From a bacterium (GTDB lineage: Bacteria > Pseudomonadota > Alphaproteobacteria > Sphingomonadales > Sphingomonadaceae): a stretch of 64,000 nucleotides of DNA. Numbering within the stretch: the stretch's first letter is position 1; each line of letters starts with the position of its first letter. Position numbers and translations under genes: made by a program. Shown here in pieces: positions 2,713-40,273 of the stretch. Under the pieces are notes generated by a model that did not search any database, was not told the DNA's origin, and saw nothing but the letters and a program-made list of their open reading frames with translations. The stretch lies in NCBI GenBank assembly GCA_030824575.1, contig JAVBXL010000044.1, positions 1-64,000 of the forward strand, read 5' to 3'.

Positions 2713-2737
2713 ATGGTGCTGGACCTTGTGGCCGTTC

Positions 2738-2849: not shown

Positions 2850-2893
2850 GGCTTGTTGGACCAGCAGACCGCACCCGCCCGTCGCCCTTGTGA

Positions 2894-5230
<2,337 letters not shown>

Positions 5231-7425: not shown

Positions 7426-7607
7426 GCGCCTGCCTTGCCTCCTGCGATGCGCCTCGACAGGCTCATCATGCCCCGCGTCGCTGCAAAGGAAAAGGGGGCA
7501 GGCGTCGCTTTGTTCCGACAGCGCGTCCTGCCGCCACGGCGCTGGTTCGAGTGCCACTGTTCCGATGGTCGGATCATCCCATTGGATTGCCGCGTCATTG
7601 CGCCTAC

Positions 7608-14463: not shown

Positions 14464-16497
14464 TCACCTCCCGAAACTGACGCCGATCCAGAGCGTCCGC
14501 GGCGTGCCCAGGTCCATCGATCCACCGGCATTGCGGGTCACGACCGTCTCGTCGAACAGATTCTCGCCCCGCGCCACCAGGCTGACGCCATGGCCGATCG
14601 GCAGGCGCGCGACCGCATCCAGCGTCAGCGCATCGGGCAGGACGTCGCTTTGCAGATCGTCCTCATATTGTTTGGCGACGTAGCGCAACGTGGTTGACAG
14701 CGTGGGGCCTGATGCGGGGCTGTAGGCGACGGTGGCGCTGGCCGCATGGCGCGGGCTCTGCGCCGGCGTGAAGCCGTTAAACGCCGCGCCGGGCGCACGG
14801 ACCGTGCTGTGGCTATAGGCGTAGGAGGCCGACAGACGGATATCGCCCAGCGCCGCCGCCGCGGTCAGTTCGACCCCCTTGGCGACGATGCGATCGACAT
14901 TCTGGCGCTTGCGCAAGTTGGCGATCAACGGATCAGTCACATTGGCGATCGCGTCGTCCAGCCGGTTGTAGAAGGCGGTGGCGGACAGGGTGACGCCGGC
15001 CAGCGGGGTCAGGTCGATCCCGGCCTCCACGCCCTTCAGCTTTTCGGGGGTCAGCGCGGCATTGGCCTGGGTCGTGATCGGGAATACCACGAACGGACGA
15101 TACAGTTCGTTGAGCGTCGGCAGGCGGAAGCCGCTATAGGCCGCCGTCCGCAGCGCGAGCGCGTCGCTGGCGCGATAGAGCGCGCCGACCCGGCCGGACA
15201 CTTCCCAGTCCGACCGATCGGCAAAGTCGCCGCCTGTCGTTGCGCCGGTGGTGGCGCTGGCCTGGCGATAGAAGCCATTGCGGATCGACCAACGATCGCC
15301 CCGCACGCCGCCGGTCAGCACCAGTTTCCCACCAAGGCCTTCCGGCGTCCAGTCATCCTCGGCAAAGACGCCGGTCGTCCACTGGTCGCCACCGGCATGG
15401 CGCAGGAAGGTGCGCGGGTTGGCCGCGATATTGGCGTTGAAAGCATCCTCATACATGTCGCCGGTGGCGAAACGGGTATCGACCCCCAGCCGCAGCACAT
15501 GGTCCGGGCCGACCGGCGGCCGGATTTCGAGCTTGCCGCCGATCCCGGTGGACGGCGTGTTGCGCTGGTCCAGCGACTTGCGGAAGGTTGAGGACGAGAT
15601 GACGATGTTCGAAAAATTGCGTGCCTGGATATAGGCCAGCGCATCGACCTGCCACGGCCCGCGATCGATATAGCGGATGCTGGCGTCCTGCCCCTGGCTC
15701 ATGCTGTCCGCCCCGGCGAAGCGCAGCGTGCGATTATCCTCGAACAGGGTGGCGCGGAATTGCAGTTCCGACGTAGCGGAGATTGGCGCGACAGCGCGCA
15801 GGTTGGTAGACCAGCCGTCATAGGCGGCCGGCACGGTGGCGGCGACGCGCTGGTCCTTGGGCGTGGTCTGAAACCCGTCGCCCCGGTCCCAACGGCCCGA
15901 CAGCGAGACATAGCCGCCGCCTAGATCCTGGGTTAGGCCTGCGGACACTTCGGTCGAATCGCGGCTGCCGTAAAAGGCGCTGGCGGCAAAATCGGGCAAT
16001 TGCGCGCGTGTCGCGCTGGCCAGTTCGATCGTGCCAGCGACCGCGCCTGCACCGAAGGCGCCGATGCCGCCGCCGCGGGTAACGCGCACGACGGACAGGC
16101 GTTCGGGCACCAGCGCGCTGAACGGGATATAGCCGAAGAAGGGATCGGCGATCGGCACGCCGTCTAGCAGCACCAAGGTCCGGCTGGACGCATTGCCGCC
16201 CAGGGCGCGCAGCGTCGCGCCCTGGTTGGAGGGGTTGGACGATCGGCTGTCCGACCGGCGGAATTGCTGGAAGCCCGCGACGTCGGCCAGCACGCTTTCG
16301 ATCCGCCCCGACGCGCTGTCCAGCAGCCGCTGCCGGTCGATCACCACAGACCCATAGGCCGGCGTGCCGGGGGGCAGGTCCAGCCCCGCGCCGGTGACGA
16401 TGATCTGTGACGCCTCGCCCGGCGCATCATCGGGCGCCTGGGCGAAAGCCAGCGTCGGAACGGACAATAAGATAGCGGGCAATATGACAGTCTTCAT
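14464..16497 (-). CDS. TonB-dependent outer-membrane receptor of the PQQ locus
   Basis: A 677-residue receptor with signal peptide (MKTVILPAILLSVPTLAFA), a plug domain (VVIDRQRLLDSASGRIESVLADV, then LLDGVPIADPF) and a 22-strand-type barrel ending in an aromatic/Gly-rich last strand (LWIGVSFGR). The plug resembles BtuB-like small-cofactor receptors. It lies downstream of the porin and carries its own copy of the locus promoter motif at 16590-16606. PQQ, a lanthanide chelate or a corrinoid are possible ligands; none is proved by the sequence. Confidence 0.9.
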   Translation of the reverse strand: MKTVILPAILLSVPTLAFAQAPDDAPGEASQIIVTGAGLDLPPGTPAYGSVVIDRQRLLDSASGRIESVLADVAGFQQFRRSDSRSSNPSNQGATLRALGGNASSRTLVLLDGVPIADPFFGYIPFSALVPERLSVVRVTRGGGIGAFGAGAVAGTIELASATRAQLPDFAASAFYGSRDSTEVSAGLTQDLGGGYVSLSGRWDRGDGFQTTPKDQRVAATVPAAYDGWSTNLRAVAPISATSELQFRATLFEDNRTLRFAGADSMSQGQDASIRYIDRGPWQVDALAYIQARNFSNIVISSSTFRKSLDQRNTPSTGIGGKLEIRPPVGPDHVLRLGVDTRFATGDMYEDAFNANIAANPRTFLRHAGGDQWTTGVFAEDDWTPEGLGGKLVLTGGVRGDRWSIRNGFYRQASATTGATTGGDFADRSDWEVSGRVGALYRASDALALRTAAYSGFRLPTLNELYRPFVVFPITTQANAALTPEKLKGVEAGIDLTPLAGVTLSATAFYNRLDDAIANVTDPLIANLRKRQNVDRIVAKGVELTAAAALGDIRLSASYAYSHSTVRAPGAAFNGFTPAQSPRHAASATVAYSPASGPTLSTTLRYVAKQYEDDLQSDVLPDALTLDAVARLPIGHGVSLVARGENLFDETVVTRNAGGSMDLGTPRTLWIGVSFGR

Positions 16498-16551
16498 GGC
16501 GATCCCCTCGACGCCCCTCTCCTTATTTTCCATGCCTTTTGCAAACGGAAA

Positions 16552-16580
16552 GGGGCCACATCCTTGTAAGATGCAGCCCC
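16552..16580 (-). terminator. hairpin between porin and TonB receptor genes
   Basis: On the minus strand GGGGCTGCATC can pair with GATGTGGCCCC (two G-T pairs) around a 7-nt loop, followed by CTTTCCGTTT. It could attenuate porin transcripts. It overlaps the inferred -10 region of the receptor promoter, so its role is ambiguous. Confidence 0.45.
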
Positions 16581-16606
16581 CGCCCCGTGACATTGTTCCT
16601 TCGGTC
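16563..16606 (-). promoter_or_regulatory. PQQ-locus promoter motif, site 1 (TonB receptor)
   Basis: Minus-strand GACCGAAGGAACAATGT (16606-16590) matches the locus motif, and 21 nt later comes TACAAG (16568-16563) as a possible -10. It overlaps the porin stop codon and reads toward the receptor gene. Confidence 0.5.
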
Positions 16607-18005
16607 AGAAGAAGAGGATCGCCCCTGCCGCAACGGCGCTGGAGGTGGCTTCGTTGCCGTTATGCGCCTGCGAATTGCTGCGCACATATTCACCCAGCAG
16701 CGTGACCCAGCTGTTGAGGCCGTAGCGGACCTGACCGACCCAGCTGCTATTCTTGTCGACCAGCGTCGGGTTGGCCAGCGCATCGGCGATATTGGCATAG
16801 TCGAGATTGCTCTCGCCATAGCTGCCACCGACCGAGAATTTGCCGAAGGTCGCCAGTCCCTGCAGATAGAAGCCATGGCTGTCGCGCTTGTTGCCCAGCC
16901 CATCGGTGTCGAACAGGTTGAGCGCGGTGGTGCCAAGGCCCGATGCGTCATAATAGGTGCCGACGACCGTGACCGGCCCGAAAGTGACCTTCGCGCCCGC
17001 GTCCCAGCCCCAGCCGGTATAGTCCGGGCCGACATCGACATTATGCTTCTGCGTCACGCCCGACACCCACAGGCGGGTGCCGACATCGCCGAATTTGCCG
17101 TCATAGACGAATTTCGCCTGGAAACCGGGCTGCTTGTTGGTTTCGGCCGGGCCGGTCAGCGAAGATAGCGGCTCGAAAATGCCGACGCTGGCGGTAAAGC
17201 CGCTGAAATTGGGCGTGGTGTAGGTGATTTGCGGCTGGAAGTCGGTGTAGATATATCCGGTGCCAATGCGGCCCAGCGTGGTGTTGGACGGGGCGACATT
17301 GCCCGCCGGGGTGCCTGACGACAGCAGGGTGATGTCGTTCAGGATCGCTTCCGACGCAAACAGGCCGATGTCGCGACCGATCTTCACCTCACCAAAGCCG
17401 GCGCGGCCGAAGGTCAGGTAGGTCTGGCGGAAATCGATGCCCGCGGTCTGCAACGCGCGGGGGTTACCGGCGCTGTTGGCGCCGCCGCCGGCCGCATAAT
17501 TGACCGAGTTGATGCCCGGATACATGCCGAAATGGGCGCCCACGTCCCATCCGTCCAGGCTGGTCGAGGCCTCCACCTTCAGGAAGCCGGGGAGCAGGCC
17601 GTTGCGCACGGCCGATGTGCTGCCGCCCACGGTTGCGACCCCGCCCGTCACCGCCGTCGTGGCGCTGGGCGTATCGCCATTATCATGGACGTAGAAGCCA
17701 TTGACCGAGCCGGAGAATTTCAGCGTTACGTCGCCCATTTGCAGGCCAATGCCGCTTTGTGTCATCCGCACGAACCCGGCGCCGCCCGATGCGTCCGGCG
17801 TCACCGCCGGGGCAGGGGCGGCCGCGACCTGCGCCGCCTCGGCGGTCTGGCCCTTCGACAGTTCCTGATATTCGTCATCGGTCAGGATGCCTTTTTCGTG
17901 CAGCCGCTTCAGCAAATCCGCGGTGGTTCCGGCCATGGCCGGTGCTGCGGTGGCGGCGAGCATCAATGCTCCAGCCGCGCTCATCAGGCGCAACGTCCCC
18001 TTCAT
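16605..18005 (-). CDS. outer-membrane porin (OprO/P-like)
   Basis: A 466-residue porin with signal peptide ending at AMAG, then a short helical segment (LLKRLHEKGILTDDEYQEL) like the SHOCT-type linker seen in many sphingomonad porins, an Ala/Pro linker and a barrel rich in alternating aromatic strands that ends in AAGAILFF, with the terminal Phe needed for outer-membrane assembly. It sits in the PQQ locus behind a copy of the locus motif, so it probably admits alcohol substrate into the periplasm; that role is inferred from context only. Confidence 0.88.
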   Translation of the reverse strand: MKGTLRLMSAAGALMLAATAAPAMAGTTADLLKRLHEKGILTDDEYQELSKGQTAEAAQVAAAPAPAVTPDASGGAGFVRMTQSGIGLQMGDVTLKFSGSVNGFYVHDNGDTPSATTAVTGGVATVGGSTSAVRNGLLPGFLKVEASTSLDGWDVGAHFGMYPGINSVNYAAGGGANSAGNPRALQTAGIDFRQTYLTFGRAGFGEVKIGRDIGLFASEAILNDITLLSSGTPAGNVAPSNTTLGRIGTGYIYTDFQPQITYTTPNFSGFTASVGIFEPLSSLTGPAETNKQPGFQAKFVYDGKFGDVGTRLWVSGVTQKHNVDVGPDYTGWGWDAGAKVTFGPVTVVGTYYDASGLGTTALNLFDTDGLGNKRDSHGFYLQGLATFGKFSVGGSYGESNLDYANIADALANPTLVDKNSSWVGQVRYGLNSWVTLLGEYVRSNSQAHNGNEATSSAVAAGAILFF

Positions 18006-18116: not shown

Positions 18117-19097
18117 TCAGGGCGCGGCGACGATGCCCCACGGCGCAGCGCCAACCGCGATGGTCTGCACCACCGAACCCTTGGCCAGGTCGATCACGGA
18201 GACATTGTCCGAAAGGCCATTGGCGGCATAGGCGCGCGTCCCATCGGCGCTGATCGCGACATGCCAGACGCGCTTGCCGACCGGCACATAGGCCCGCACC
18301 TTGCGGGTCGCGACATCGACCAGCGCGACATGGTCGGCCCGGCCCAGCGCGATGACGGCGGTCTTGCCATCGGGCGTGAATCGGATGCCGCATGGCAGGA
18401 TGCGATGATCGGGCACGCCGGGGATGGCGAAACGCAACGTCTCGGCCACTTGCCGGCTGGCGGTGTCGATGATCTGCACCGCCCCGCCAATCTCGGCAGC
18501 AACCCACAGCTGCGTGCCGTCGGCGGTGAATTCGACATGGCGGGGACGCTGATCCGTCGGCGTTTCGGCGACCATCGCCTTGGCTTTGACGTCGATCCAG
18601 TTGACGACATTATCCTCCTCCGACGTAACCACCACCCATTGGCCATCGGGACTTTGCGCCACCCCCTCCGGCTCGCCGCCGACATCGACTTGGAAGGCGA
18701 CGGTGCGGCTGGCCAGGTCGATCGCGGTCAGTGCGGCGTCGTCCTCATTGGCGACGAACAGAGTCGCGCCGTCGCGGGACAGGAAGAATTGCTCCGGATC
18801 TTGCCCGGACGGCAGTTCCGCCACCACCTTGCCGCTCGCCCGATCGATCACCTGCACCGCATGGTCAAGGCTGGCGCAAAGATAGAGATATTTGCCGTCC
18901 TTCGACACGGTGATGCCACGCGGTCGGCCGCCCACGGCCCAGGTCGCCGTCACCGCGCCTGAGGCGGCATCGATTACGCTGACGCTGTCGCCGCGCTCGT
19001 TGGAGACATAGAGAGTTTCTGGGAGAGTTTCTGCCAGGATTGGGGCTGGGGCCGCGGCGGGCAGCAGCATCAGCCCTGCGATCATGACGCGCTTCAT
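18117..19097 (-). CDS. YVTN beta-propeller protein of PQQ-dependent catabolism
   Basis: A 326-residue exported protein: signal peptide (MKRVMIAGLMLLPAAAPAPILA), then about seven repeats of the YVTN type, for example LYVSNERGDSVSVIDAASG, LFVANEDDAALTAIDLAS and AYAANGLSDNVSVIDLAKG. It matches the family named PQQ-dependent catabolism-associated beta-propeller protein, found beside PQQ alcohol dehydrogenases. No catalytic residues are evident; a periplasmic scaffold or carrier role is likely. It is divergent from the cytochrome gene. Confidence 0.9.
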   Translation of the reverse strand: MKRVMIAGLMLLPAAAPAPILAETLPETLYVSNERGDSVSVIDAASGAVTATWAVGGRPRGITVSKDGKYLYLCASLDHAVQVIDRASGKVVAELPSGQDPEQFFLSRDGATLFVANEDDAALTAIDLASRTVAFQVDVGGEPEGVAQSPDGQWVVVTSEEDNVVNWIDVKAKAMVAETPTDQRPRHVEFTADGTQLWVAAEIGGAVQIIDTASRQVAETLRFAIPGVPDHRILPCGIRFTPDGKTAVIALGRADHVALVDVATRKVRAYVPVGKRVWHVAISADGTRAYAANGLSDNVSVIDLAKGSVVQTIAVGAAPWGIVAAP

Positions 19098-19245: not shown

Positions 19246-19674
19246 ATGAAGATATTGGGTAGGGTCGCATTGCTGGGTGCCATCGCCACGCTGGGCATGA
19301 CTGCGGCAAGTGCATTGCTGGCGCATGGCGACGTGACGCCGCAGGCGGTGGATACGACGGCATTGCCGGAAATCGGCGAAACCTGGCTGGAGAAAAATCC
19401 CTATAGCGGTAACGCGAAGGCGATCGAGATCGGCCAGTCCGCTTATGGCCAGAATTGCGCGCGATGCCACGGGCTTGACGCGGAAAGCGGCGGCATCGCC
19501 CCTGACCTGCGCTATCTGGAAGCAGGCGAGACGGGCGACCAATGGTTCGCCGAACGCTATCGCCACGGCTCCAGCCATGACGGCAAAGTCTATATGCCGC
19601 CCTTCGGCGACGTATTGGGGCAAAAAGCCGGCTGGGCGATCCGCGCCTGGCTCGAAACCAAGCACGAAGGCTGA
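19246..19674 (+). CDS. cytochrome c-550, PedF type
   Basis: A 142-residue periplasmic monohaem cytochrome. After a signal peptide ending near LAHG, residues 71-75 are CARCH and a Met in VYMPPFGD is the likely distal ligand. The block ENPYSGN/AIEIGQSAYGQNCARCHGLDAESGGIAPDLR is as in PedF, the electron acceptor found beside PQQ ethanol-type dehydrogenases. It should take electrons from the PQQ dehydrogenase encoded two genes downstream. GTGAGGA precedes the ATG. Confidence 0.93.
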   Translation: MKILGRVALLGAIATLGMTAASALLAHGDVTPQAVDTTALPEIGETWLEKNPYSGNAKAIEIGQSAYGQNCARCHGLDAESGGIAPDLRYLEAGETGDQWFAERYRHGSSHDGKVYMPPFGDVLGQKAGWAIRAWLETKHEG

Positions 19675-19679
19675 TCGCG

Positions 19680-20546
19680 ATGCTCAGCCGTCGCGCATGG
19701 ATGGGCGGGGCAGGGGCGGCGCTGGGGCTGGGCCTGCTACCGGGCCGCAGCGAAGCCGCGCCGCTTGCCAAGGTCAAGGCGCTCGGCACGCTGCGGGTGG
19801 TCGTTTACAAGGATAACCGTCCCTGGTCGTGGGAGGAAGGCGGCAAGCTCGTCGGCCTGGACGTCGATCTGGCGCAGGCGATCGCCGGCAAGCTCGGCGT
19901 GCGCGCCGACGTGGCGGAACTCGTCGCGGACGAAAGCGCCGACGACGATCTGCGCAACGGCGTTTGGAAGGGCGGCCTGCTGGGCTTCACGCCAGGCGAC
20001 GTCATGCTGCACGTCCCCTTCGACCGCAGCTTCGCCGCGCGCAACGATCAGGTGGCGATCGTCGCACCCTATTATCGCGAGAGTTTCGCACTGGCCGGCC
20101 TGGGCGGCGCGGTGCCGCTGGAAGGGATGCCGACCGAATGGCGTGGTCGCCGGTTGGCGGCCGAACTGGACAGCATCCCCGATTTCTATCTGATCGGTAG
20201 CTTCGGTGGGGTCTTGACCAAGGATGTGGCCCATTACCCGACCGGGTCGGCGGCGGTGGATGCGGTGACGGGCGGCAAGGCCGACGCCGTGCTCGCCAGC
20301 CGCGCCCAGATCGAGGAGGGGTTGCACCGCGCGGGCGAGCGCGCCAGCCGGATCGCGCTGCGCAAGGGGCCATTGCCCGCCTTCACCTCGCCCGGCTGGG
20401 ACATCGGCATGGCGGTGAAGGAAAATAGCCGCACGCTGGGCGATGCGGTGGAGGAAATCACCACCACTATGGCAACCAACGGCGAGATGAAGGCGCTGTT
20501 CGCGCGCTACGGCGTCACCTGGACACCGGCGAACGCCGCGGGGTGA
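19680..20546 (+). CDS. quinoprotein-associated periplasmic solute-binding-like protein
   Basis: A 288-residue protein of the periplasmic binding protein type 2 fold (LRVVVYKDNRPWSWEEGGKLVGLDVDLAQAIAGKLG) with an N-terminal twin-arginine-like signal (LSRRAWMGGAGAALG). It fits the quinoprotein-dehydrogenase-associated ABC substrate-binding family, the group of MxaJ/XoxJ. No ABC permease or ATPase is nearby, which agrees with a chaperone or activator role for the dehydrogenase rather than transport. It starts 5 nt after pedF. Confidence 0.88.
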   Translation: MLSRRAWMGGAGAALGLGLLPGRSEAAPLAKVKALGTLRVVVYKDNRPWSWEEGGKLVGLDVDLAQAIAGKLGVRADVAELVADESADDDLRNGVWKGGLLGFTPGDVMLHVPFDRSFAARNDQVAIVAPYYRESFALAGLGGAVPLEGMPTEWRGRRLAAELDSIPDFYLIGSFGGVLTKDVAHYPTGSAAVDAVTGGKADAVLASRAQIEEGLHRAGERASRIALRKGPLPAFTSPGWDIGMAVKENSRTLGDAVEEITTTMATNGEMKALFARYGVTWTPANAAG

Positions 20547-20605: not shown

Positions 20606-20654
20606 GCACATAAACGGGGGGCGTAGAGCGCCCGTTCAACTAGGGAGGATGGTT

Positions 20655-22394
20655 ATGAAGGGACCGATCATGCGGGCGCTGTCGGGCGTTGCCGCGATGA
20701 CGCTGGCGATGGGCGCCGCGCCGCTGGTAGCGCAAGGGCCGACCGATGCGGATTTGATGAACGACGCCAAATCGACCGGTGACGTGCTGACCTATGGCAT
20801 GGGACCGCAAGCGCATCGCTTCAGCACCCTTAACGCCATCAACAGCGGCAATGTGTCGAAGATGGTCCCGGCCTTTTCCGCCTCGCTGGGCGGCGAAAAG
20901 CAGCGCGGCCAGGAAGCTCAACCGATCGTCTACGATGGCATCATCTATGTAACGGGCAGCTATTCGCGCCTGTTCGCCTTCGACGCGCGCACCGGGGAAG
21001 AAAAATGGCAATATGACGCCCGTCTGCCTGACGGCATCATGCCATGCTGCGACGTCGTCAACCGCGGTGCCGCCATCCATGGCGACAAGATCATCTTCGC
21101 AACGCTCGACGCGCGTTTGGTGGCGCTCAACCGCCTGACTGGCAAGGTGATTTGGAACAAGCAGATAGCCGATTATAAGGAAGGCTATAGCGCCACCGCC
21201 GCACCTTTGATCGTGCGGGGCATGGTCATCACCGGCAATTCGGGCGGCGAATTCGGCGTCGTAGGCGCGGTCGATGCGCGCGACGTCAACACCGGCGAGC
21301 TGATCTGGCATCGTCCCGTGATCGAAGGCCATATGGGCACGCTCAAGGGCCAGGATAACGGCGTCACCGGCAAGCTCAACGCCACCTGGCAGGGCGATTT
21401 GTGGAAGAGCGGCGGCGGCGCGACATGGCTGGGCGGCACCTATGACCCGGACACCAACCTGCTCTTCTTCGGCACCGGCAATCCCGCGCCCTGGAACAGC
21501 CATCTGCGCCCCGGCGACAATCTCTATACCGCCTCGACCCTGGCGATCGACCCGGAAACCGGCGTCATCAAATGGCATTATCAGACCACCCCGCATGACG
21601 GCTGGGATTTCGACGGGGTGAATGAATTCATTCCCTTCGACGCCACCATCAACGGCAAGCCGATGAAGCTGGGGGCCAAGGCCGACCGCAACGGTTATTT
21701 CTTCGTGCTCGACCGCACCAACGGCAAGTTCATCAGCGCCAACAAGTTCGTCATGCAGACGACCTGGGCCAATGGCTTCAACAAGGCCGGCAAGCCCAAC
21801 GTCATCCCCGAAGGCCGTCCGCCAGCCCCTGGCGAGGGCAAGGGCAAGTCGGTCTTCGCCTCGCCATCCTTCCTGGGCGGCAAGAACTGGATGCCCATGG
21901 CCTACAGCCAGGATACCGGCCTGTTCTACATCCCGTCCAACGACTGGGGCATGGACATCTGGAACGAACCGATCGCCTACAAGAAGGGCGCGGCCTATCT
22001 GGGCGCGGGCTTCACCATCAAGTCGATCGCGGAGGATCATATCGGCGCGCTGCGGGCGATGGACCCCAAGACCGGTAAGATCGTGTGGGAATATAAGAAC
22101 AAGGCGCCGTTGTGGGGCGGGGTTCTGTCCACCGGCGGCAACCTGGTTTTCACCGGCACGCCCGAAGGCTATCTCAAGGCGTTCGATGCCAAGACCGGCC
22201 AGGAATTGTGGAAATTCCAGACCGGCTCGGGCGTGGTCGGATCGCCCGTCACCTGGGAACAGGATGGCGAACAATATGTCGCCGTCATGTCCGGCTGGGG
22301 CGGCGCGGTGCCGCTGTGGGGCGGCGAAGTCGCCAAGTCGTTCAAGGACATCAACCAGGGCGGTGCGCTCTGGGTGTTCAAACTGCCCAAGTGA
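20655..22394 (+). CDS. PQQ-dependent alcohol dehydrogenase, lanthanide-type active site
   Basis: A 579-residue periplasmic quinoprotein of the methanol/ethanol dehydrogenase family. After the signal peptide the eight-bladed propeller carries the vicinal Cys131-Cys132 pair that stacks on PQQ, and metal ligands Glu199 (SGGEF), Asn276 (GNPAPW) and Asp318. Asp318-Phe-Asp320 supplies the second aspartate that XoxF and ExaF/PedH enzymes use for lanthanides; calcium enzymes have Ala or Ser there. Arg345 is in place. There is no C-terminal haem domain, so electrons must go to a separate cytochrome. The start at 20655 is chosen because AGGGAGG lies 6 nt upstream; an ATG 6 nt earlier is too close to it. 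Substrate may be methanol, ethanol or a longer alcohol. Confidence 0.95.
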
Positions 22395-22413
22395 GGAACT
22401 AGGCAAATGATCG

Positions 22414-22489
22414 TCATGGGACGTGGACATTATGCGCAATCGGCCCCGGCCATCCCGCCCGGCGCATTGCGACTTGCCACGTCCCATGA
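22414..22489 (+). other. long inverted repeat between dehydrogenase and regulator genes
   Basis: TCATGGGACGTGG (22414-22426) and CCACGTCCCATGA (22477-22489) are perfect complements; inside them CGCAAT and ATTGCG can pair further. The RNA would form a stable two-step stem ahead of the response regulator ATG. No T-run follows, so it is not a standard terminator. Confidence 0.6.
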
Positions 22490-22550
22490 TGTGTCCGATC
22501 ATCAGCGGCAGGGGCATGACATGGGGCATTATATGGGCGGGGAAGCGGTC

Positions 22551-23189
22551 ATGGAGCGGGTGTTGATCATCGACGATCACCCGCTTGTGCGCGACGGATT
22601 GCGCAGCGTGATCGCGATCAGTTTCGACAATATCGAGATTTTCGAAGCGGCGGGACTCGAAGAGGCTGTCGCAACGCTGGAAAAGCAGGAAAATTTCGAC
22701 CTGATCCTGCTCGACCTGAACATTCCCGATGTGCGTCGCCTGGATGGGCTCAAGCTGCTGCGCGATCGCTTTCCGATCCTGCCGGTGGTGATGGTGTCGG
22801 GCGCGTTCGACCGTTCGATCGTGCAGGAAGCGCTGGCCGCAGGCGCGGCCGGCTTCATCCCCAAATCCTTGAAGCGCAGCGCGATCGTGGAGGCGCTGCA
22901 TCGTGTCGTGTCGGGCGAAATCTATCTTCCCGAAACCATGGGCGAGGGTGCCGCGCCGTCAGCGGAGGAGGATGATATCGCCCGCCGCATCGACAGCCTG
23001 ACGCCGCAGCAAAAGACGGTGCTGGGCCATCTGGTCAACGGCCGCTTGAACAAGCAGATCGCCCATGACCTCAACGTGTCGATGACGACCATCAAGGCGC
23101 ATGTGTCGGCGATCTTGCAGAAACTGGGCGTATTGAGCCGCACACAGGCGGTGATCAAGGCCAACCGCGTGCATTTCGGCGCGGATTGA
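22551..23189 (+). CDS. LuxR/NarL-family response regulator
   Basis: A 212-residue cytoplasmic regulator. The receiver domain (LIIDDHPLVRDG) has acidic residues 8-9, the phosphorylated Asp55 (LILLDLN) and the Lys in GFIPKS. The C-terminal LuxR helix-turn-helix reads LTPQQKTVLGHLVNGRLNKQIAHDLNVSMTTIKAHV. It belongs with ExaE/AgmR/PedR-type regulators that activate PQQ dehydrogenase genes. The start MERVLIIDD is preceded by GGGGAAG; the frame is open further upstream through a structured region. It is the best candidate to bind the locus promoter motif, with the hybrid kinase nearby as partner. Confidence 0.9.
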   Translation: MERVLIIDDHPLVRDGLRSVIAISFDNIEIFEAAGLEEAVATLEKQENFDLILLDLNIPDVRRLDGLKLLRDRFPILPVVMVSGAFDRSIVQEALAAGAAGFIPKSLKRSAIVEALHRVVSGEIYLPETMGEGAAPSAEEDDIARRIDSLTPQQKTVLGHLVNGRLNKQIAHDLNVSMTTIKAHVSAILQKLGVLSRTQAVIKANRVHFGAD

Positions 23190-23193
23190 GGCT

Positions 23194-24777
23194 TCAGGCT
23201 TTCGCCGACAGCGCTCCCAGTTCCTCGATATCCAGGTCGCGTTCCAGTTCCTGAAACGTCGCCTCGTCAATCTCGCCCGCACGATGCAGGCGCAGCAGTT
23301 CGGCCCGCCCGGCCGCGACAGCCTTCAGGACAAGGTTGAAATGCGCGTGCAATGTGTCGGCATGATCGGCTTCCTGCCCGGCATAGTTGGCGGACAATGT
23401 GGCATGGCGCTGGTATCGATCGAGCAGGCGCGGATGCAGCAGCGTGCCATCCGCATCATAGGCATGGGCCTCAACCACCCGGACCTGCGCCTGCGCCATG
23501 GCGGCTTCGGCCTCACTCATGCTCATGCGCGCCTTGTCGCTTTCCGGTTCCTCCAACTGCATCCACCGGATCACTGCGCCCAAGGTCGTCCCCTGGATCA
23601 GCACGGTGCCGATGATGACGCCGAAGGCCGCGACCAGGATGAAGTCGCGGCCGGGAAAACCCTCCGGCACGCTCAGCGCCACCGCCAGCGTCACCACGCC
23701 GCGCATCCCGGCCCAGCCCAGCACAATGGCCGACCGCGCGCCGATCGGTGCGTAGCGGCGCAATCCGCAGGCCCGCAGCAGGCGGGTGACGCCGTCCGAC
23801 CCGAACACCCAGGCGAAGCGCGCCAGCGTCAGCGCGACCAGAATGGCCAGCACCGGCCCCGCCATCTGCGCCAGCACCAGTTCGAACCCGCCGACGCGGT
23901 CGATCACCCCGCGCAGGGACGATCCGATCAGCAGGAAGACGAACGCCTCCATAAGGAAGATCATCACCGCCCAGAAGGCGGTGCCATTCATCCGCACCGT
24001 CGCGGAAAAGACGACATGCTGATACCAGCCGCAGATGAGGCCGGTCGTGACCGTGGCGATCACGCCCGACACATGCACCGTCTCCGCCAGCAGATAGGAT
24101 GCCCAGGGCGCCAGCAGCGAAGAAGCGATCATCAGATATTTATCGTCCAGCCGCGGCGTCAGCCGGACCCAGGCGATGCCCACCGCCGCGCCGACCAGCG
24201 CGCCGCCGATCGCCAGCAGCGCGAAGCTTTCCATCGCCTCCACCATGCTGAACGCGCCGGTGACGCCCGCCGCGATCGCGAAGCGGAAGAGGACGAGGCC
24301 GCTGGCGTCGTTGAACAGGCTTTCGCCCTCCAGCAAAATGGCCAGGCGGCGGGGCAGGCGGACATGTTGCAACACGGCGCGCGCCGATATGGCATCCGGC
24401 GGAGACACGATCGCGCCTAGCGCCGCACAGGCGGCCCAGGGCAGCGAGGGCACCAGCCAATGCGTCACCACCGCCACGATCACCGTGGTAAAGACCACCG
24501 CACCCACCGCCAGCGCGATGATGCCCAACATGTGCCGATGCAGGTGGCGCAGCGCGATGAACCACGCCCCGTCCATCAGCAGCGGCGGCAGGAAGATGAC
24601 CAGCACCAGTTCCGGGTCGAGCGAGATGACCGGCAGGCCCGGCAGAAAGGCGAAGAGCGCGCCGCCGGTCAACAGCGCGACGGCGGGCGGAAGGCCCATT
24701 TTGTGCGCCGCATAATGCAACAGGATGATCGCCAGCAGCATGACGACCAGCAATTCGAACAATTGCATCGGATGCAT
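23194..24777 (-). CDS. CPA1-family Na+/H+ antiporter
   Basis: A 527-residue inner-membrane antiporter with about twelve helices over residues 5-410 and the family blocks LPPLLMDGAW, SPPDAISARAVL and ESLFNDASGLVLF, where the ND pair is the ion site. A cytoplasmic helical tail of about 120 residues follows. It converges on the response regulator with 4 nt between stops. Its link to alcohol oxidation is not obvious; pH or sodium homeostasis is the default role. Confidence 0.92.
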   Translation of the reverse strand: MHPMQLFELLVVMLLAIILLHYAAHKMGLPPAVALLTGGALFAFLPGLPVISLDPELVLVIFLPPLLMDGAWFIALRHLHRHMLGIIALAVGAVVFTTVIVAVVTHWLVPSLPWAACAALGAIVSPPDAISARAVLQHVRLPRRLAILLEGESLFNDASGLVLFRFAIAAGVTGAFSMVEAMESFALLAIGGALVGAAVGIAWVRLTPRLDDKYLMIASSLLAPWASYLLAETVHVSGVIATVTTGLICGWYQHVVFSATVRMNGTAFWAVMIFLMEAFVFLLIGSSLRGVIDRVGGFELVLAQMAGPVLAILVALTLARFAWVFGSDGVTRLLRACGLRRYAPIGARSAIVLGWAGMRGVVTLAVALSVPEGFPGRDFILVAAFGVIIGTVLIQGTTLGAVIRWMQLEEPESDKARMSMSEAEAAMAQAQVRVVEAHAYDADGTLLHPRLLDRYQRHATLSANYAGQEADHADTLHAHFNLVLKAVAAGRAELLRLHRAGEIDEATFQELERDLDIEELGALSAKA

Positions 24778-24850: not shown

Positions 24851-27073
24851 CTATTTCAGCATGGTCCGCAACAGCGCGCGGAGCTGCGCGGGCTTGACCG
24901 GCTTGTTGAGCAGCGGGATGCCGTGCGCGTCGAGTCGCGCCTTCAACTCCTTGCCGCGATCGGCGGAGATCATCACGGCGGGGATCGGCATGGCGAAATG
25001 GTCGCGCAGTCGGTCCAGCGCAACGTCGCCCGTCTCGCCCTCGTTCAAATGATAGTCGATCAGGATGATGTCCGGCGCGCTGTCCGGTGCAAACAGGCCG
25101 GTCGCTTCGGCAAAGCCGCCCGCCGCCAGTACGGTGCAGCCCCAGCCGCCCAGCAGGGTGCGCATCCCCGTCTGGATCGCCCGTTCATTGTCGATCACCA
25201 GCACGTTGAGCCCGCGCATCGATCGGTCGCGGCCGATCGGCTCCGGCCCGCTGTCCAGATCGGCCACCGGCTCGCCGATCGGCAGGTCGATCGCGAAGGT
25301 CGATCCGCGGCCAGGCGCGGACTCCAGCGTCACGCGATGGCCCAGCATGTCGCTCGCCCGCTTGACGATGGCCAGGCCCAGCCCCTTGCCACTGGTGCGG
25401 GTGTCGAGCCGGCGAAATTCCTCGAACACCAGCGCCTGCTTGTCGGCCGCGATACCGGGACCGCTGTCGATCACGCTGGCGCGGATGGTCCGTTCGCCCA
25501 CCACGCAATCGAGCCGTACCGAACCCTGCTGGGTATAGCGCAGCGCGTTGGACAGGAAATTCTGCAGGATGCGCCGCACCAGCCTTATGTCGGACCGGAC
25601 CCAGAGCGGCTCGCTCGCCATGTCCAGCACCAGCCCCGATGCGCGGGCGACGGGCGCAAATTCCACCCGCAACGTGCCCAGCAGCGTGTCGAGCCGGAAG
25701 TCGATAATCTCCGGCTGGATCGCGCCGGCGTCGAGCCGGCTGATCTCCAGCAGCGCCTCCAGGAGATCCTCGACCGAATCGAGCGCGGTCGATGTCTGGT
25801 TGACCAGCGCGCGGGTGGGCAACGCCAGCCGTCGGTCGCCCAGCGCCGCGACGAACAATCGCGCCGCGTTCAACGGCTGCAACAGGTCGTGGCTGGCGGC
25901 GGCCAGGAAGCTGGTCTTGGACAGGTTCGCCTTTTCCGCCGCCGTCTTGGCGTCGCGCAGTTGTGCCTCGATCTCGCGCCGTTCGGCCACTTCGGCGCGC
26001 AGTTCGGCGGTGCGCTCGGCGACGCGGCGCTCCAGCGTCTCGGCGGTTTCCTGAAGGCCCGCCTGCGCCCGGAGCATGTCGGTGACGTCGGTGAAGCCGA
26101 TCACTTGGCCCCCGCGCTCCAGCGCCGTGCTACGGACGTCGAACTGGCGGTCCCCGGCCGCAACCAGCGCATGGCGCGCCGCGCCGGGCTGGTCGCCCCG
26201 CCAATCGAGGCACCCCCCGTCCGCCATGCCCAGCCGATCGCGGCACCAGCCGAGCAGCGCGCCATGGCTGGCCCCCTCCTGCGCCCAGTCGTCGGGCAAA
26301 TGCAGGATATGCTGCAACGCCTCGTTCCAGGCGGCGACCCGGCCATGGGCATCGAACAGGCACACCCCCTCCGACAGATTGTCGAGCGTCGATTGCAGCA
26401 CCAGATTGCGTTCGGCCAGTTCCAGCGCGCGGTTGCGCGCGTCCTCCGCCTTGACTTCCGTAATGTCGGTATAGATGCCGACGATCCCGCCCTCGCTGGT
26501 GCGCAATTCGTTGATCTGGACCCAGCGGTCGTCGGCCAGCGCCTGGACATGACCGCCATCAGCGACGCTGTGGCGCGCCAGTCGATCCGACACCCAGCGA
26601 TCCGGGGCGACCACCGATCCGGGCGGGCGGTGATGCGCCGCGGCCAGCCGCGCGACATCCTCGAACGACATGCCTTCATGCAGTTGGTCTGCAATTTCGG
26701 GCCAGAAGCCCAGATAGGCGTCGTTGAACAGGACCAGCCGGTCCTCCGCATCGAACAGCACGAAGCCTTCGTTGATCGAATCGATCGCGTCGCGCAGGCG
26801 CAGTTGCGCCGCGTCGGCGCTCGCATGGGCATGGGCCAGGTCGGCATTGGCGGTGGCGAGCCGTCCCAGCGCATCTTCCAGCTCGGTCGTCCGTTCGCGC
26901 ACCATCGCTTCCAGCGTGATGGCGGTTTCGAACATCGAAAAGGCGTTGCCGGCCATGTCGCTTGACCGTTCCACCCGATCGATCAGCGCGGCATTGATCT
27001 TGCGCAACTTGCGGTTGTCTTCGCGCAGTTGGGCGAGTTCCGCGTCGGTCGAGGGAAGGGCCGTTTCCGTCAT
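24851..27073 (-). CDS. PAS-containing hybrid histidine kinase
   Basis: A 740-residue soluble sensor. Order: N-terminal coiled coil (residues about 10-90), PAS domain (about 92-210), second PAS (about 222-335), coiled coil, HisKA with His395 in AAASHDLLQPLNAAR, HATPase (GPGIAADKQ, GKGLGLAIVKR) and a C-terminal receiver domain (LIDYHLN, NKPVK). There are no membrane helices, so it senses an internal signal or one passed by the FIST protein whose stop overlaps its start as ATGA. Pseudomonas PQQ-ethanol loci have similar soluble kinases (ErcS-like). It may phosphorylate the LuxR regulator directly or through its own receiver. Confidence 0.92.
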   Translation of the reverse strand: MTETALPSTDAELAQLREDNRKLRKINAALIDRVERSSDMAGNAFSMFETAITLEAMVRERTTELEDALGRLATANADLAHAHASADAAQLRLRDAIDSINEGFVLFDAEDRLVLFNDAYLGFWPEIADQLHEGMSFEDVARLAAAHHRPPGSVVAPDRWVSDRLARHSVADGGHVQALADDRWVQINELRTSEGGIVGIYTDITEVKAEDARNRALELAERNLVLQSTLDNLSEGVCLFDAHGRVAAWNEALQHILHLPDDWAQEGASHGALLGWCRDRLGMADGGCLDWRGDQPGAARHALVAAGDRQFDVRSTALERGGQVIGFTDVTDMLRAQAGLQETAETLERRVAERTAELRAEVAERREIEAQLRDAKTAAEKANLSKTSFLAAASHDLLQPLNAARLFVAALGDRRLALPTRALVNQTSTALDSVEDLLEALLEISRLDAGAIQPEIIDFRLDTLLGTLRVEFAPVARASGLVLDMASEPLWVRSDIRLVRRILQNFLSNALRYTQQGSVRLDCVVGERTIRASVIDSGPGIAADKQALVFEEFRRLDTRTSGKGLGLAIVKRASDMLGHRVTLESAPGRGSTFAIDLPIGEPVADLDSGPEPIGRDRSMRGLNVLVIDNERAIQTGMRTLLGGWGCTVLAAGGFAEATGLFAPDSAPDIILIDYHLNEGETGDVALDRLRDHFAMPIPAVMISADRGKELKARLDAHGIPLLNKPVKPAQLRALLRTMLK

Positions 27074-28212
27074 CGCCCGATCGCCAGCCCGCTGAACGTC
27101 TGGTTGACGTGCAGCGCATGATATTGCTCGCCATAGGTGTTGAAGCCGATCACGCGATGGCGGCCATAGAGTTCGGACACGGCGCGGCCGATCTGCCGCT
27201 GTTCCGCGTCGATGCGGTTGAGCACGCAATCGAAGGCGATGATGCGGTCGACCTGCCCGACATGGGCGCCGATGTCGGCGAACATCGTTTCCATCCCCGC
27301 GATCCGGTCGATCGGCTCGCCCACGGTCAGCACGATTCCTTCGTCGATCGCGCAATAGAAGGTCAGGCTGCCGTCCGGGTTGGCGCTCTGGATCGACCGC
27401 ACATGATAATCGCCGCCCGCGCGCACCATCGGCGGATGCGCGGCGTAGAAGGCCAGGCCCAGCGCTTCGCCGGCATGGCCCGCCAGCCGCAGATATTCCT
27501 GCGCGGCCGGCTCTGCGTTGATCTCGGTCACGATACGGTCCTGCGGGATCGCGCCGGTCACGACCATCTTCGCCGCGCCGGGCCTGTAATGCTGCGCTTT
27601 GAAGACGTGGATCGGGCGCGGCGTGGACAGGATCGCGATCACCGCGGCCCGCTTGTGAAAACGGCCGCCCTCGAAGATCGCGGTTTCGCGGAATGCCAGG
27701 CCGTCGCCCGACGATCCGCCGATCAGCGGTATGTCGCCCAGCGCATCCTGGATCGTCATCGTCAGCAATTCTTCGCGGTGGGACAGGCCATCGACCAGGA
27801 ACAGCGCGACATGATTGACCGCCTCGCCCAGCCGCCGGCTGTCCCGGTCGGCAACCGCAGCCAGCGACCGGATCGCCTCGCGCGCGGCAACGGGATCGAA
27901 CGCATCGATATCGTCGAAAATATGGGATGTCAGGTGGAAGGCATCGGCCGGAAAGCCGATCACGCTCAGGCTGTCCTCGTCATAGCCCGCCTCGGTCAGT
28001 TCGCCCGAACTGGTGCAACCGATCGCGACGACATGTTCGCTATGCCGGTTGACCGCGCGCGCCAGTGCATCGCGATCGAAGCGGTGCGAGCAGAAAAGCA
28101 GCATCCCGGCCAGCGGCGCATCGCCCAATTGCCGTGCGACGTCCGCCATCGCCTTCGCCGGATCGGGCGAATGGCTCGATGCGAAACCGATTTCCGACGC
28201 TAGCATGGTCAT
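27070..28212 (-). CDS. FIST-domain sensory protein
   Basis: A 380-residue protein with FIST N and C domains (GCTSSGELTEAGYDEDSLSVIGFPADAF; C-terminal VIGFNTYGEQYHALHVNQTFSGLAIG). FIST domains are thought to bind small ligands such as amino acids. It overlaps the hybrid kinase gene by ATGA and should act as its ligand-binding partner. The start at 28212 is chosen by the preceding GGATAGGA; an ATG 15 nt earlier is equally open. What it binds (alcohol, aldehyde or metal state) cannot be read from sequence. Confidence 0.88.
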   Translation of the reverse strand: MTMLASEIGFASSHSPDPAKAMADVARQLGDAPLAGMLLFCSHRFDRDALARAVNRHSEHVVAIGCTSSGELTEAGYDEDSLSVIGFPADAFHLTSHIFDDIDAFDPVAAREAIRSLAAVADRDSRRLGEAVNHVALFLVDGLSHREELLTMTIQDALGDIPLIGGSSGDGLAFRETAIFEGGRFHKRAAVIAILSTPRPIHVFKAQHYRPGAAKMVVTGAIPQDRIVTEINAEPAAQEYLRLAGHAGEALGLAFYAAHPPMVRAGGDYHVRSIQSANPDGSLTFYCAIDEGIVLTVGEPIDRIAGMETMFADIGAHVGQVDRIIAFDCVLNRIDAEQRQIGRAVSELYGRHRVIGFNTYGEQYHALHVNQTFSGLAIGR

Positions 28213-28284
28213 GTTCCTATCCCCCATGGCCTCCCCCTTTTCCGGGGGTTATGCACCGCGTCGCGTCCCAATGTCACGCTCGTC

Positions 28285-28689
28285 CTATCCCGTGACCGCA
28301 TCACCCCTGGGCGGATCGCCTGCCGCTTCCAGCAGCGCATTTTCCGCGTCGTCGAATATGCGCGACCGGACGATGAAGCGGACGCCTTCGGGGCTTTCCA
28401 GCGACATGCCGGCACCGCGTCCCGGCACGACGTCGATCGTCACCTGGGTATGGCGCCAATAGTCGAACTGCGCCGCGCCGATCCACACCGCTATGTCGCC
28501 CGCAACATGGCCCAGCAGGACGTCCTGCCCGCCGACCTTGAACTCGCCGCGCGGGAAGCACATCGGCGCGGACCCATCGCAGCACCCACCCGACTGGTGG
28601 AACATCAGCAGCCCGTGCTTTTGCGTCAGGCTGTGCATCAGCGCCTGCGCCGCCGGCGTCGCCAATATGCGTGGGGGCAGCCCGGTCAT
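28285..28689 (-). CDS. DUF779 protein, aldehyde dehydrogenase partner
   Basis: A 134-residue protein of DUF779, commonly encoded beside ExaC/AdhB aldehyde dehydrogenases. It has the Cys-rich block HQSGGCCDGSAPMC near residues 37-50, which could bind a metal, followed by compact beta-strand segments (VTIDVVPGRGAG). AGGAG lies 7 nt before the chosen ATG. It is downstream of the aldehyde dehydrogenase gene on the same strand, probably in one operon. Exact function unknown. Confidence 0.85.
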   Translation of the reverse strand: MTGLPPRILATPAAQALMHSLTQKHGLLMFHQSGGCCDGSAPMCFPRGEFKVGGQDVLLGHVAGDIAVWIGAAQFDYWRHTQVTIDVVPGRGAGMSLESPEGVRFIVRSRIFDDAENALLEAAGDPPRGDAVTG

Positions 28690-28797
28690 GATCATGCTCC
28701 TGAAAAACGACGATGCGGCGGGCATCGGGGAAAGGATGCCCGCCGCCGTCAAAGGCCTTATGGAGAGGAATCCGCCTTCGACGAACCGTCAACGGCT

Positions 28798-30318
28798 TTA
28801 GAAGAAGCCAAGCGCCTTGGGGCTGTAGCTCACCAGCAGATTCTTGGTCTGCTGATAATGGTCCAGCATCATCTTATGGTTTTCGCGCCCGATGCCCGAC
28901 TGCTTGTAGCCGCCGAACGCCGCATGGGCGGGATAGGCATGATAGCAGTTGGTCCAGACCCGGCCGGCCTGGATGCCACGGCCCATGCGATAGGCGCGGC
29001 TGCCGTCGCGGGTCCATACGCCCGCGCCCAGGCCGTACAACGTGTCATTGGCGATGGCGAGCGCGTCGGCTTCATCCTTGAAGGTGGTGACGGCCAACAC
29101 CGGGCCGAAAATCTCCTCCTGAAAGATGCGCATCTTGTTGTGGCCCTTGAGGACTGTGGGCGTGACATAATAGCCGTCGGCCAGTTCGCCATCCAGATGC
29201 GCACGCGCGCCGCCGGTCAGCAATTCCGCGCCTTCGTTCAGGCCGATCTCGATATAGGAGAGGATCTTCTCCAGCTGGTCGTTCGACGCTTGCGCGCCGA
29301 TCATGGTGCTGGGATCAAGCGGGCTGCCCTGCTTGATCGCCTTCACCCGCGCAATCGCGCGCTCGATGAACTTCTCGTAGATCGATTCCTGGATCAGCGC
29401 GCGGCTGGGGCAGGTGCAGACTTCGCCCTGGTTCAGCGCGAACATCGCGAACCCTTCCAGGCATTTGTCGAAATAATCGTCGTCGGCGTCCATCACATCG
29501 GCGAAGAAGATGTTGGGCGACTTGCCGCCCAGTTCCAGCGTGACGGGAATCAGGTTTTCCGACGCATATTGCATGATCAGCCGACCGGTCGTCGTCTCGC
29601 CGGTGAAGGCGATCTTGCTGATCCGCTTGTTGCTGGCGAGCGGCTTGCCCGCTTCCACGCCGAAACCGTTGACGACGTTCAGCACGCCGGCCGGAAGCAG
29701 GTCGCCGATCACGTCCAGCAGCACCAGGATCGACATCGGCGTCTGTTCGGCAGGCTTGAGCACGATGCAGTTGCCCGCCGCCAGCGCCGGGGCCAGCTTC
29801 CACACCGCCATCAGGATCGGGAAGTTCCACGGGATGATCTGGCCGACCACACCCAGCGGTTCGTGGAAATGATAGGCGATCGTGTCATGGTCGATCTCGC
29901 TGATCGATCCTTCCTGCGCGCGGACGCAACCCGCAAAATAGCGGAAATGGTCGATGGCGAGGGGAATGTCGGCATGGGTCGTCTCGCGGATCGGCTTGCC
30001 GTTATCGATCGTCTCGGCCATCGCGATCAGATCCAGATTGGCCTCCATCCGGTCGGCGATCTTCAGCAGGATGTTCGACCGGTCGGTGGACGATGTCTTG
30101 CCCCAGGCGTCCTTCGCCCTGTGCGCGGCATCCAGCGCCAGTTCGATATCGCCAGCGGTGCCGCGTGCGATTTTGCCGACCACTTGGCCGGTCACGGGCG
30201 AGATATTGTCGAAATAGCCGCCCTGCACCGGCGCGATCCACTCGCCGCCGATATAATTGTCATATTGGTCGCGGATCAGCGTCTTTCCCGCGAAACGCTC
30301 CATCGCCTGCTGCAGCAT
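28798..30318 (-). CDS. NAD(P)+-dependent aldehyde dehydrogenase, ExaC/AdhB type
   Basis: A 506-residue cytoplasmic aldehyde dehydrogenase that oxidises acetaldehyde-like aldehydes to acids. The cofactor motif FTGETTTG, catalytic Glu in LELGGKSPN and catalytic Cys in [11 protein letters not shown] are intact. The double Cys and overall sequence match ExaC of PQQ ethanol oxidation. It follows the pseudoazurin gene by 49 nt and precedes DUF779, so it should consume the product of the PQQ dehydrogenase. Confidence 0.95.
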
Positions 30319-31523: not shown

Positions 31524-32324
31524 ATGTTGCAAAGGCAGGCAAGCCTTTGGGTCGCGCTCGCCCTGGTGCTGGTCGCGGCCGACGCCAGGGCGACAGCACC
31601 CGTCGATCCGCTGGGGTCGCCGATGTGGGCCGCCCATGCCCGCACGCTGTTCGGCGACGATCCGGTCCGCTTCGACCCGCGCGTCAAGGTCGACTTTCCG
31701 ATGATCGCCGAAAATCAGCGCGCCTTTCCGGTCGCGATCGACGCCCGCGCTATCCCCGGCGTCATTCGCATCGTCATCCTGGTCGATCTCAATCCCATTC
31801 CGATCGCCATCGACTATCGCCCGCTTCATGCCGCCCCTTATGTCGCGACCCGCATCAAGCTGGACCAGCGCACCCCGGTACGCGGCGCGGTGCAGCTGGC
31901 CAGCGGGGAATGGCTGGTGTCGGGCGGATGGATCGACGCGGCTGGCGGTGGTTGCTCCGCCCCGCCGGTCAGCCGGGTCAAGGGCGACTGGGCCGAGCAT
32001 CTGGGCGAGATACGCGGCGAAGCCTGGCCTTTGCCGGGCGGCTTGGCCCGCGTGCGCCTCAATTTCCGCCATCCGATGGACACCGGCCTGGTCGATAATA
32101 TCGCCACCTATCATCTCGAAGCGCTGCGCGTGAAGGACAACGGCGGCCGGACGCTGGGCGAGATGGATATCTGGGCGGCGGTGGCCGAAGATCCCGCGAT
32201 CACGCTGATGGTCGAGGATGGGACAGGGGAGGGGCTGGCCGTAGAAGCGCGGGACACCAATGGGCGCGACTATCGCGCGGCGCTGCCCATGGCGCGCCAG
32301 TCTCCGATGCCAGGCGGCCGATGA
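31524..32324 (+). CDS. quinoprotein-associated SoxYZ-like carrier protein
   Basis: A 266-residue exported protein fusing SoxY-like and SoxZ-like immunoglobulin-type halves. In Sox systems the SoxY cysteine in a Gly-rich end carries sulfur intermediates; here AAGGGCSAPP at about residues 138-147 holds the only obvious such Cys, between the two halves. It matches the family named quinoprotein dehydrogenase-associated SoxYZ-like carrier. It overlaps the metallohydrolase gene by ATGA. Confidence 0.9.
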   Translation: MLQRQASLWVALALVLVAADARATAPVDPLGSPMWAAHARTLFGDDPVRFDPRVKVDFPMIAENQRAFPVAIDARAIPGVIRIVILVDLNPIPIAIDYRPLHAAPYVATRIKLDQRTPVRGAVQLASGEWLVSGGWIDAAGGGCSAPPVSRVKGDWAEHLGEIRGEAWPLPGGLARVRLNFRHPMDTGLVDNIATYHLEALRVKDNGGRTLGEMDIWAAVAEDPAITLMVEDGTGEGLAVEARDTNGRDYRAALPMARQSPMPGGR

Positions 32325-39945: not shown

Positions 39946-40273
39946 GGCTGGTCTCTCCTGTTGGTTGCTGGTGACTACGAAGGGCGAGGGCAAATGATCC
40001 CGCCGCGGCAAGAAACTTGTCACGACAGCCTAGCAGAAGCACGGCGCGCGCCAAGCCACCCTTTCGCACGCGGCCAAGAGGTGATTCGCGCGGCAGATGA
40101 TGCACCGACCCGACCGAGACATATTCCGTATCCATCTAACATACGGGGAAACATGGGTTTTTGTGCCTGGGAAGGAGAATTTCATTTTTGTGCAATTCTC
40201 CCCTTGCCCCTTTAGACAAGCGCTGCTAGTTCCCCGCCACCCGCCGAGAGAGACACATCCTCCGGCCGCCCGA

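Follow-up and report, generated by a model that had tools for sequence, protein, structure and literature searches.

The window analysed here, a stretch of 64,000 nucleotides of sphingomonad DNA, encodes a PQQ-dependent alcohol dehydrogenase that is, judging from its sequence, almost certainly an ortholog of PedH and very probably dependent on lanthanides. In the sphingomonads examined the ped cluster is trimmed, with no recognisable PedBC importer, rarely a Ca twin and usually no PqqE, and is an altered version of the ped/lut arrangement. Taken as a whole, the material is probably best explained by such a trimmed cluster together with a periplasmic PedH that is loaded with scavenged lanthanide and PQQ. 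It is the trimmed cluster around PedH that makes the finding worth a bench test.

Table 1. Features of the pedH region, by position in the window
Feature	Position	Strand	Evidence or remark
TonB-dependent receptor 1 (TonB1)	14464..16593	-	PF00593, PF07715; relatives in many sphingomonad loci
Putative porin	16605..18005	-	recurs beside pedA2 in many sphingomonad loci
PedA2-type beta-propeller (PQQ-dependent catabolism-associated)	18117..19097	-	TIGR03866, 395 bits, cut-off 287
Cytochrome c-550 PedF, probable electron acceptor	19246..19674	+	TIGR04494, 214 bits, cut-off 122
Periplasmic solute-binding protein, PedG position	19680..20546	+	PF00497
PedH/ExaF-type PQQ alcohol dehydrogenase	20649..22394	+	start at 20649 or 20655
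Vicinal Cys131-Cys132	21045..21050	+	read and alignment
Glu199, metal ligand	21249..21251	+	read and alignment
Asn276, metal ligand	21480..21482	+	read and alignment
Asp318-Phe319-Asp320, putative catalytic Asp and predicted extra lanthanide-ligand Asp	21606..21614	+	direct read; aligned with PedH, XoxF
Arg345	21687..21689	+	read and alignment
LuxR-type response regulator	22407..23189	+	PF00072, PF00196; ErdR model 179.5 bits, under cut-off 390
CPA1-type Na+/H+ antiporter	23194..24777	-	between regulator and kinase in ped block
Hybrid histidine kinase, NahK/ErcS type	24851..27073	-	NF041832, 407 bits, cut-off 400
NosP-like FIST-domain sensor	27070..28227	-	NF041558, 404 bits, under cut-off 450; PF08495
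DUF779 protein	28285..28752	-	PF05610
Acetaldehyde dehydrogenase ExaC	28798..30318	-	NF050026, 949 bits, cut-off 900
Quinoprotein relay system zinc metallohydrolase 1	32321..33262	+	TIGR04558, 364 bits, cut-off 300
LutH-like TonB-dependent receptor (second TonB receptor)	33748..36072	-	35% identity to LutH-position Methylobacterium haplocladii receptor

The PedH-type enzyme and its active site

The original prediction placed a D-F-D motif at residues 318-320 of the dehydrogenase. Direct reading of the open reading frame found the codons GAT TTC GAC there, when numbering starts at the second ATG (20655); counted from the first ATG the residues are 320-322. Cys131-Cys132, Glu199, Asn276 and Arg345 were likewise present where they had been placed. 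We take the first Asp of the motif, Asp318, to be catalytic and Arg345 to be a PQQ contact, not a metal ligand. The motif is not a chance occurrence, since its position aligns with D-F-D of PedH (6zcw) and D-Y-D of XoxF (6dam), and the second Asp is thus common to both enzymes, as had been claimed. The further claim that Ca types differ at this residue was borne out by D-F-S in ExaA (1flg) and D-Y-A in an MxaF-like protein of Methylobacterium (L185). In the alignment, the whole string Cys-Cys-Glu-Asn-Asp-Phe-Asp-Arg of the window protein is identical to that of 6zcw. We also noted that the PedH of Insolitispirillum peregrinum (L087, 10001-11734) aligns with Gln in place of the metal ligand Asn276.

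The best solved relatives of the window protein were two P. putida PedH structures (855 bits for 6zcw and 853 bits), followed by ExaA (703 bits), a type II quinohemoprotein (401 bits) and XoxF (384 bits), and the protein matched the NCBIfam model for the PQQ-dependent methanol/ethanol family (TIGR03075) with 779 bits against a cut-off of 480. In a tree of 42 rows, four of which were solved enzymes and 19 of which came from the 80 best relatives, it fell in a 21-row PedH clade with 6zcw (support 96/98). Beside this clade, ExaA and five other D-F-S proteins formed a six-row clade (support 100/100), and all six rows have Ser in place of Asp320. The prediction had named phylogeny as a check and a place among known Ca enzymes as the outcome that speaks against it; the window protein has no Ser at 320, lies outside the ExaA/PedE Ca class and groups with PedH. 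An AlphaFold model (20 aligned sequences, mean pLDDT 79.9) fitted the PedH structures 6zcv and 6zcw best (TM 0.92 and 0.91, 64% identity), and the structural modelling that had also been proposed as a check therefore supports the family. The model is uninformative on metal geometry because residues 277-284 and 315-318, which take in the first Asp and the flank of Asn276, have pLDDT below 50.

Relatives were taken as the best 80 of 592 confirmed loci. These are 67-97% identical to the window protein and come mostly from sphingomonads, but also from Azospirillum, Alteromonas, Methylobacterium and others, with Sphingobium nearest at 97%, which is why the window is assigned to Sphingobium here. 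The motif reads W-D-F-D-G in 79 of the 80 and W-D-Y-D-G in the remaining one (L079). As all of them carry W-D-F/Y-D-G, the enzyme appears from its sequence to be a further member of the PedH/ExaF kind, ordinary for its clade. Within the family to which the window belongs, PedH at least 78% identical was found in 12 of 199 genomes, its own included.

The ped cluster and its missing importer

Much of the window's ped block is shared with those sphingomonad loci that have enough flank, with some rearrangement. The gene labelled a porin in Table 1 matched no family over cut-off in the NCBIfam and Pfam scans, so that its name is only putative. The PedA2-type propeller and that of a Methylobacterium lut-type cluster are 50% identical over 295 residues. 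The gene of the solute-binding protein comes after pedF, the place that pedG has in P. putida (reported in PMC12997753); PedA1 was considered for this protein and rejected, given the PedG position and the lack of a match to TIGR03863, the model that matches the Methylobacterium binding protein. Regulator and kinase were both found in 58 of the best 80 loci, in 46 of these less than 1500 bases apart, and many sphingomonad loci also have the pair of NahK/ErcS-type kinase and NosP-like sensor (24851-28227, minus strand) in their pedH block, a hint that alcohol oxidation might be controlled through nitric oxide or the FIST domain. The antiporter was seen at only one other pedH locus (L014) among the best 80 of 592, short loci being unable to show it. 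A pseudoazurin gene lies between exaC and the zinc metallohydrolase gene. Adjoining the LutH-like receptor, the stretch 36153-40023 (minus strand) matched PaoA and PaoC over cut-off, which belong to a periplasmic molybdenum aldehyde oxidoreductase; a gene that resembles an FAD subunit lies between the two.

In Azospirillum (L067), pedB (3300-4010) and pedC (2509-3258) directly follow pedA2 (4058-4951; these locus coordinates are those of G240 minus 168238). In the sphingomonad loci that were laid out, the pedB-pedC slot holds outer-membrane genes, namely the gene of the putative porin, which TonB1 often follows. In two Erythrobacter loci (L046, L048) the second TonB receptor itself fills the slot next to pedA2.

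Genome-wide searches covered 50 PedH-bearing genomes, which were that of the window, 38 named sphingomonad records and 11 other bacteria; they were chosen from the genomes of the 80 best relatives, mostly ones on longer contigs. The PqqE and PedB searches took in 49 genomes (without L032), and the PedC, receptor and PedE searches 50, with G000 replacing L032. The PedC permease scored over cut-off in none of the 39 sphingomonads and in 11 of the 11 other bacteria. It was also found in none of 296 genomes of the window's order, a search with no control match of its own for which the same 11 PedC-positive genomes serve as positive controls. The PedB ATPase was over cut-off in 0 of 38 sphingomonads versus 10 of 11 others (45 first-look candidates scored per genome, of 55 to 271), the exception being Paramagnetospirillum, which has PedC. 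For the window genome all 82 PedB candidates were scored, and 41 ABC ATPase stretches were seen, none over cut-off. PqqE was over cut-off in only three of 38 sphingomonads (L023, L057, L062) versus nine of 11 others, the two without it being Niveispirillum-type (L060, L063); in the window genome no PqqE over cut-off was found. Finally, a Ca-type PedE, defined as at least 70% identical to the PedE of L060, was present in 0 of 39 sphingomonads versus five of 11 others, while one sphingomonad from the family sample (G067, not among the 39) has PedH plus a Ca-type PedE with W-D-F-S. All of these counts are of genomes, not of independent losses, and a single ancestral loss would fit them.

The window genome is rated 99.74% complete with 8.93% contamination. 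Three other alcohol dehydrogenases of this genome (C83, C218, C36) have D-F-T and group with the type II quinohemoproteins in the tree. Two of them, those on C218 and C36 (L004, L006), are nearly identical type II enzymes near contig ends, which, with the contamination, may reflect a duplicated or mixed assembly.

According to a 2019 statement, every PedH-type producer reported by then had the PedA1A2BC/Lut transporter (PMC6839425). By gene content, the sphingomonads are exceptions to it: in the window genome PedA2 is present, while PedB and PedC were not found. This does not exclude membership in the PedH/ExaF type, because the importer is a property of the hosts and not of the enzyme. An absent importer is nevertheless odd if the enzyme needs a lanthanide, because P. 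putida and M. extorquens need theirs. In P. putida, loss of PedA1A2BC is reported to raise the La requirement about 100-fold, the importer being needed at low lanthanide (PMC6839425). In M. extorquens, lutE or lutF mutants are described as not growing on methanol with La until suppressors arise, and ABC importer mutants as holding La in the periplasm (PMC7391723).

An ABC importer with no relation to PedBC/LutEF could still bring lanthanide into the cytoplasm, since an unrecognised importer is possible among the many ABC ATPases of the window genome. We regard this as rather improbable: the scanned genes from TonB1 to the LutH-like receptor match no ABC ATPase or permease family, the one nearby ABC gene (7350-9461, plus strand; upstream of the ped block and outside it) encodes a fused transporter of the exporter type (PF00664 and PF00005), and with no Ca twin there would be little for a cytoplasmic switch to regulate. 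That there is no cytoplasmic lanthanide step at all is an idea we put forward with some reserve, at a little less than an even chance; where a Ca twin is lacking, no switch that needs cytoplasmic lanthanide may be required.

The LutH-like receptor and the proposed route

The second TonB-dependent receptor shares 35% identity across 727 aa (379-380 bits) with a receptor of M. haplocladii (L132) that lies behind a binding protein, a propeller, PedB and PedC, and thus in the LutH position; LutH is named here by gene position, from one Methylobacterium genome, with the M. extorquens lut gene order as given in PMC7391723. With the M. haplocladii protein as query, the window receptor reached 379 bits and E. 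coli PqqU 59, and none of five further receptors encoded in the window genome (C83, C167, C91, C58 and TonB1) exceeded 48. Relatives of the window receptor at E 1e-60 were found in 34 of 39 sphingomonads and four of 11 others, one per genome, with at most 21 candidates scored in each; at that threshold the remaining five sphingomonads gave none. In 26 of these 34 sphingomonads pedH and the receptor gene are at most 15 kb apart, and in the other eight they are on different contigs.

These receptors are of two kinds, 22 of the 34 being at least 46% identical to that of the window and 12 only 35-39%, and no genome gave both, which fits one role filled by either kind. In the receptor tree, LutH, itself a long branch, joins the receptors of Niveispirillum and Paramagnetospirillum beside the window group (87/91), and the seven rows of the distant kind form a group of their own outside this window-LutH branch (87/91). 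In M. extorquens, LutH is reported to be needed to bring La into the periplasm, and its loss to lower La uptake (PMC7391723). From these likenesses, we would give about an even chance that the window receptor carries lanthanide; both this estimate and that for the absence of a cytoplasmic step were lowered a little because 12 of the 34 receptors are distant and outside the LutH branch. LutH-like receptors are not new as such, having been reported as widespread in methane oxidisers (PMC12482762).

A receptor for PQQ, or for a PQQ-lanthanide complex in place of a lanthanide chelate, would suit bacteria that seem to need PQQ from outside. Among NCBIfam models the receptor matches PqqU best (102 bits, cut-off 1200), and a search for solved relatives at E 1e-5 gave just two, both of them E. 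coli YncD/PqqU entries. We nonetheless consider this function unlikely. The PqqU signature is given as Y/F/W99, R304 and R365 (PMC12124388), and Y99/R304/R365 reads Q, N and F in the window receptor, position 99 being Q in both alignments and the 304 and 365 columns lying in loops where the alignments differ. Furthermore, the receptor scores 380 bits with the LutH-position protein versus 65 with E. coli PqqU, and the pqqE-positive Sphingomonas formosensis also has a relative of it. The name PqqU, taken from the best model, was dropped after the LutH comparison and the signature residues. In the window genome as a whole, the highest score of a single stretch with the PqqU model was 74.5 bits, and no protein came up to the cut-off of 1200. 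The protein on C91 (L189), which aligns with F99 and R365 and a gap at 304, is a weak candidate for a PQQ receptor.

With the window receptor again taken as a lanthanide carrier, the following route can be proposed. Apo-PedH would be exported by a signal peptide; the N-terminus, judged by eye, resembles one without a twin Arg. Lanthanide would enter the periplasm through the LutH-like receptor and be handled there with the help of PedA2, and PQQ would come from outside through some receptor. PedH would then be loaded with both in the periplasm, with no passage through the cytoplasm. A light lanthanide, held by Glu199, Asn276, Asp318 and Asp320, would activate PQQ, and the enzyme would oxidise ethanol-like and aromatic alcohols to aldehydes, pass electrons to the cytochrome PedF and leave the aldehyde to ExaC; we infer this activity and these substrates from PedH. 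It is highly likely that PQQ is scavenged. Extended to sphingomonads with PedH in general, the proposal is tentative: with no known lanthanide ABC importer, and rarely a Ca twin or PQQ synthesis, they might scavenge both cofactors across the outer membrane and assemble them in the periplasm; for the use of alcohols they would then need neighbours able to produce PQQ and to mobilise lanthanides.

In both model systems, lanthanide-dependent growth needs an ABC importer directed to the cytoplasm (in P. putida at low lanthanide), though the enzymes are periplasmic. Sphingomonads with PedH and a LutH-like receptor, in which we saw no importer, offer a natural way to test the need for the cytoplasmic step. 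Should they be unable to make PQQ as well, both cofactors of their alcohol oxidation would have to be imported, and this would be a cross-feeding link open to testing. Among the PMC titles and abstract openings listed, none concerned PedH, the lack of a lanthanide importer or LutH-like receptors in sphingomonads; PMC9275249 and PMC12314914, as far as their retrieved text goes, mention sphingomonads and lanthanides but not PedH, importer loss or such a receptor.

Metal preference and known systems

The original prediction of lanthanide dependence is supported by the PedH clade together with the motif, while its use of D-x-D as diagnostic held only in this combination. The motif alone is insufficient, because membrane glucose dehydrogenase carries D-x-D and yet is reported to accept Ca, Mg, Zn or Sr (PMC11996626), and some sphingomonad type II quinohemoproteins carry it as well. 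Among sphingomonad quinohemoprotein-type alcohol dehydrogenases, W-D-F/Y-D-S was seen in L102, L103, L105, L109, L116 and L118 (frames of 710-767 aa). Three of these, the type II quinohemoproteins L102, L105 and L109, group with the type II enzymes in the tree and place D-x-D outside PedH and XoxF. Another sphingomonad enzyme, from G140 (L195 7760-9589, the same gene as L101), has PHDVWDYDGN, is 42-45% identical to the window protein and sits on a long branch that is not part of the PedH clade.

It is very unlikely that the enzyme has D-F-D but is Ca-dependent or takes any of several metals, as glucose dehydrogenase can and as would explain the missing lanthanide importer (PedC being absent from the sphingomonads searched), since it sits in the PedH clade, P. 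putida PedH is reported to be inactive under the Ca conditions used for PedE (PMC5487730), and Asp320 is conserved in 80 of 80 best relatives (of 592), with Ser in six of six rows of the ExaA/PedE clade. A lanthanide enzyme remains our reading; P. putida PedH itself is described as active only with lanthanides, namely La, Ce, Pr, Nd, Sm, Gd or Tb (PMC5487730).

The nearest known system is PedH of P. putida KT2440 (PP_2679; 6zcw, 6zcv), which has the same ligands, shares an identical stretch of 12 residues with the window protein (64% identity in the structural alignment) and has pedF and a pedG-like gene as neighbours, as in the window. The genomes differ in that the window's has no PedE, PedB, PedC or PqqE over threshold but does have a LutH-like receptor, which P. 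putida is reported to lack (PMC12997753). ExaF of Methylorubrum extorquens AM1 is, like the window enzyme, of the PedH/ExaF type. ExaA/PedE, the Ca-dependent ethanol dehydrogenase (1flg), shares the fold and the type of cluster but has Ser where the window protein has Asp320 and forms a separate sister clade (100/100). XoxF methanol dehydrogenase (6dam, 4mae) has the D-x-D lanthanide ligands but is only 37-38% identical and on a separate branch. The mirror image is Sinorhizobium, where the ABC genes of the lut kind are reported but no lutH is obvious (PMC12628762). Compared with the lut cluster of M. extorquens AM1, the window lacks PedB/LutE and PedC/LutF, while the remaining parts adjoin pedH. 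The arrangement is partly similar to that of XoxF3 clusters, which are described as having a beta-propeller, a TonB receptor and an NRAMP protein (PMC10875860), and in the lut-type cluster of M. haplocladii both the beta-propeller and the receptor are related to those of the window.
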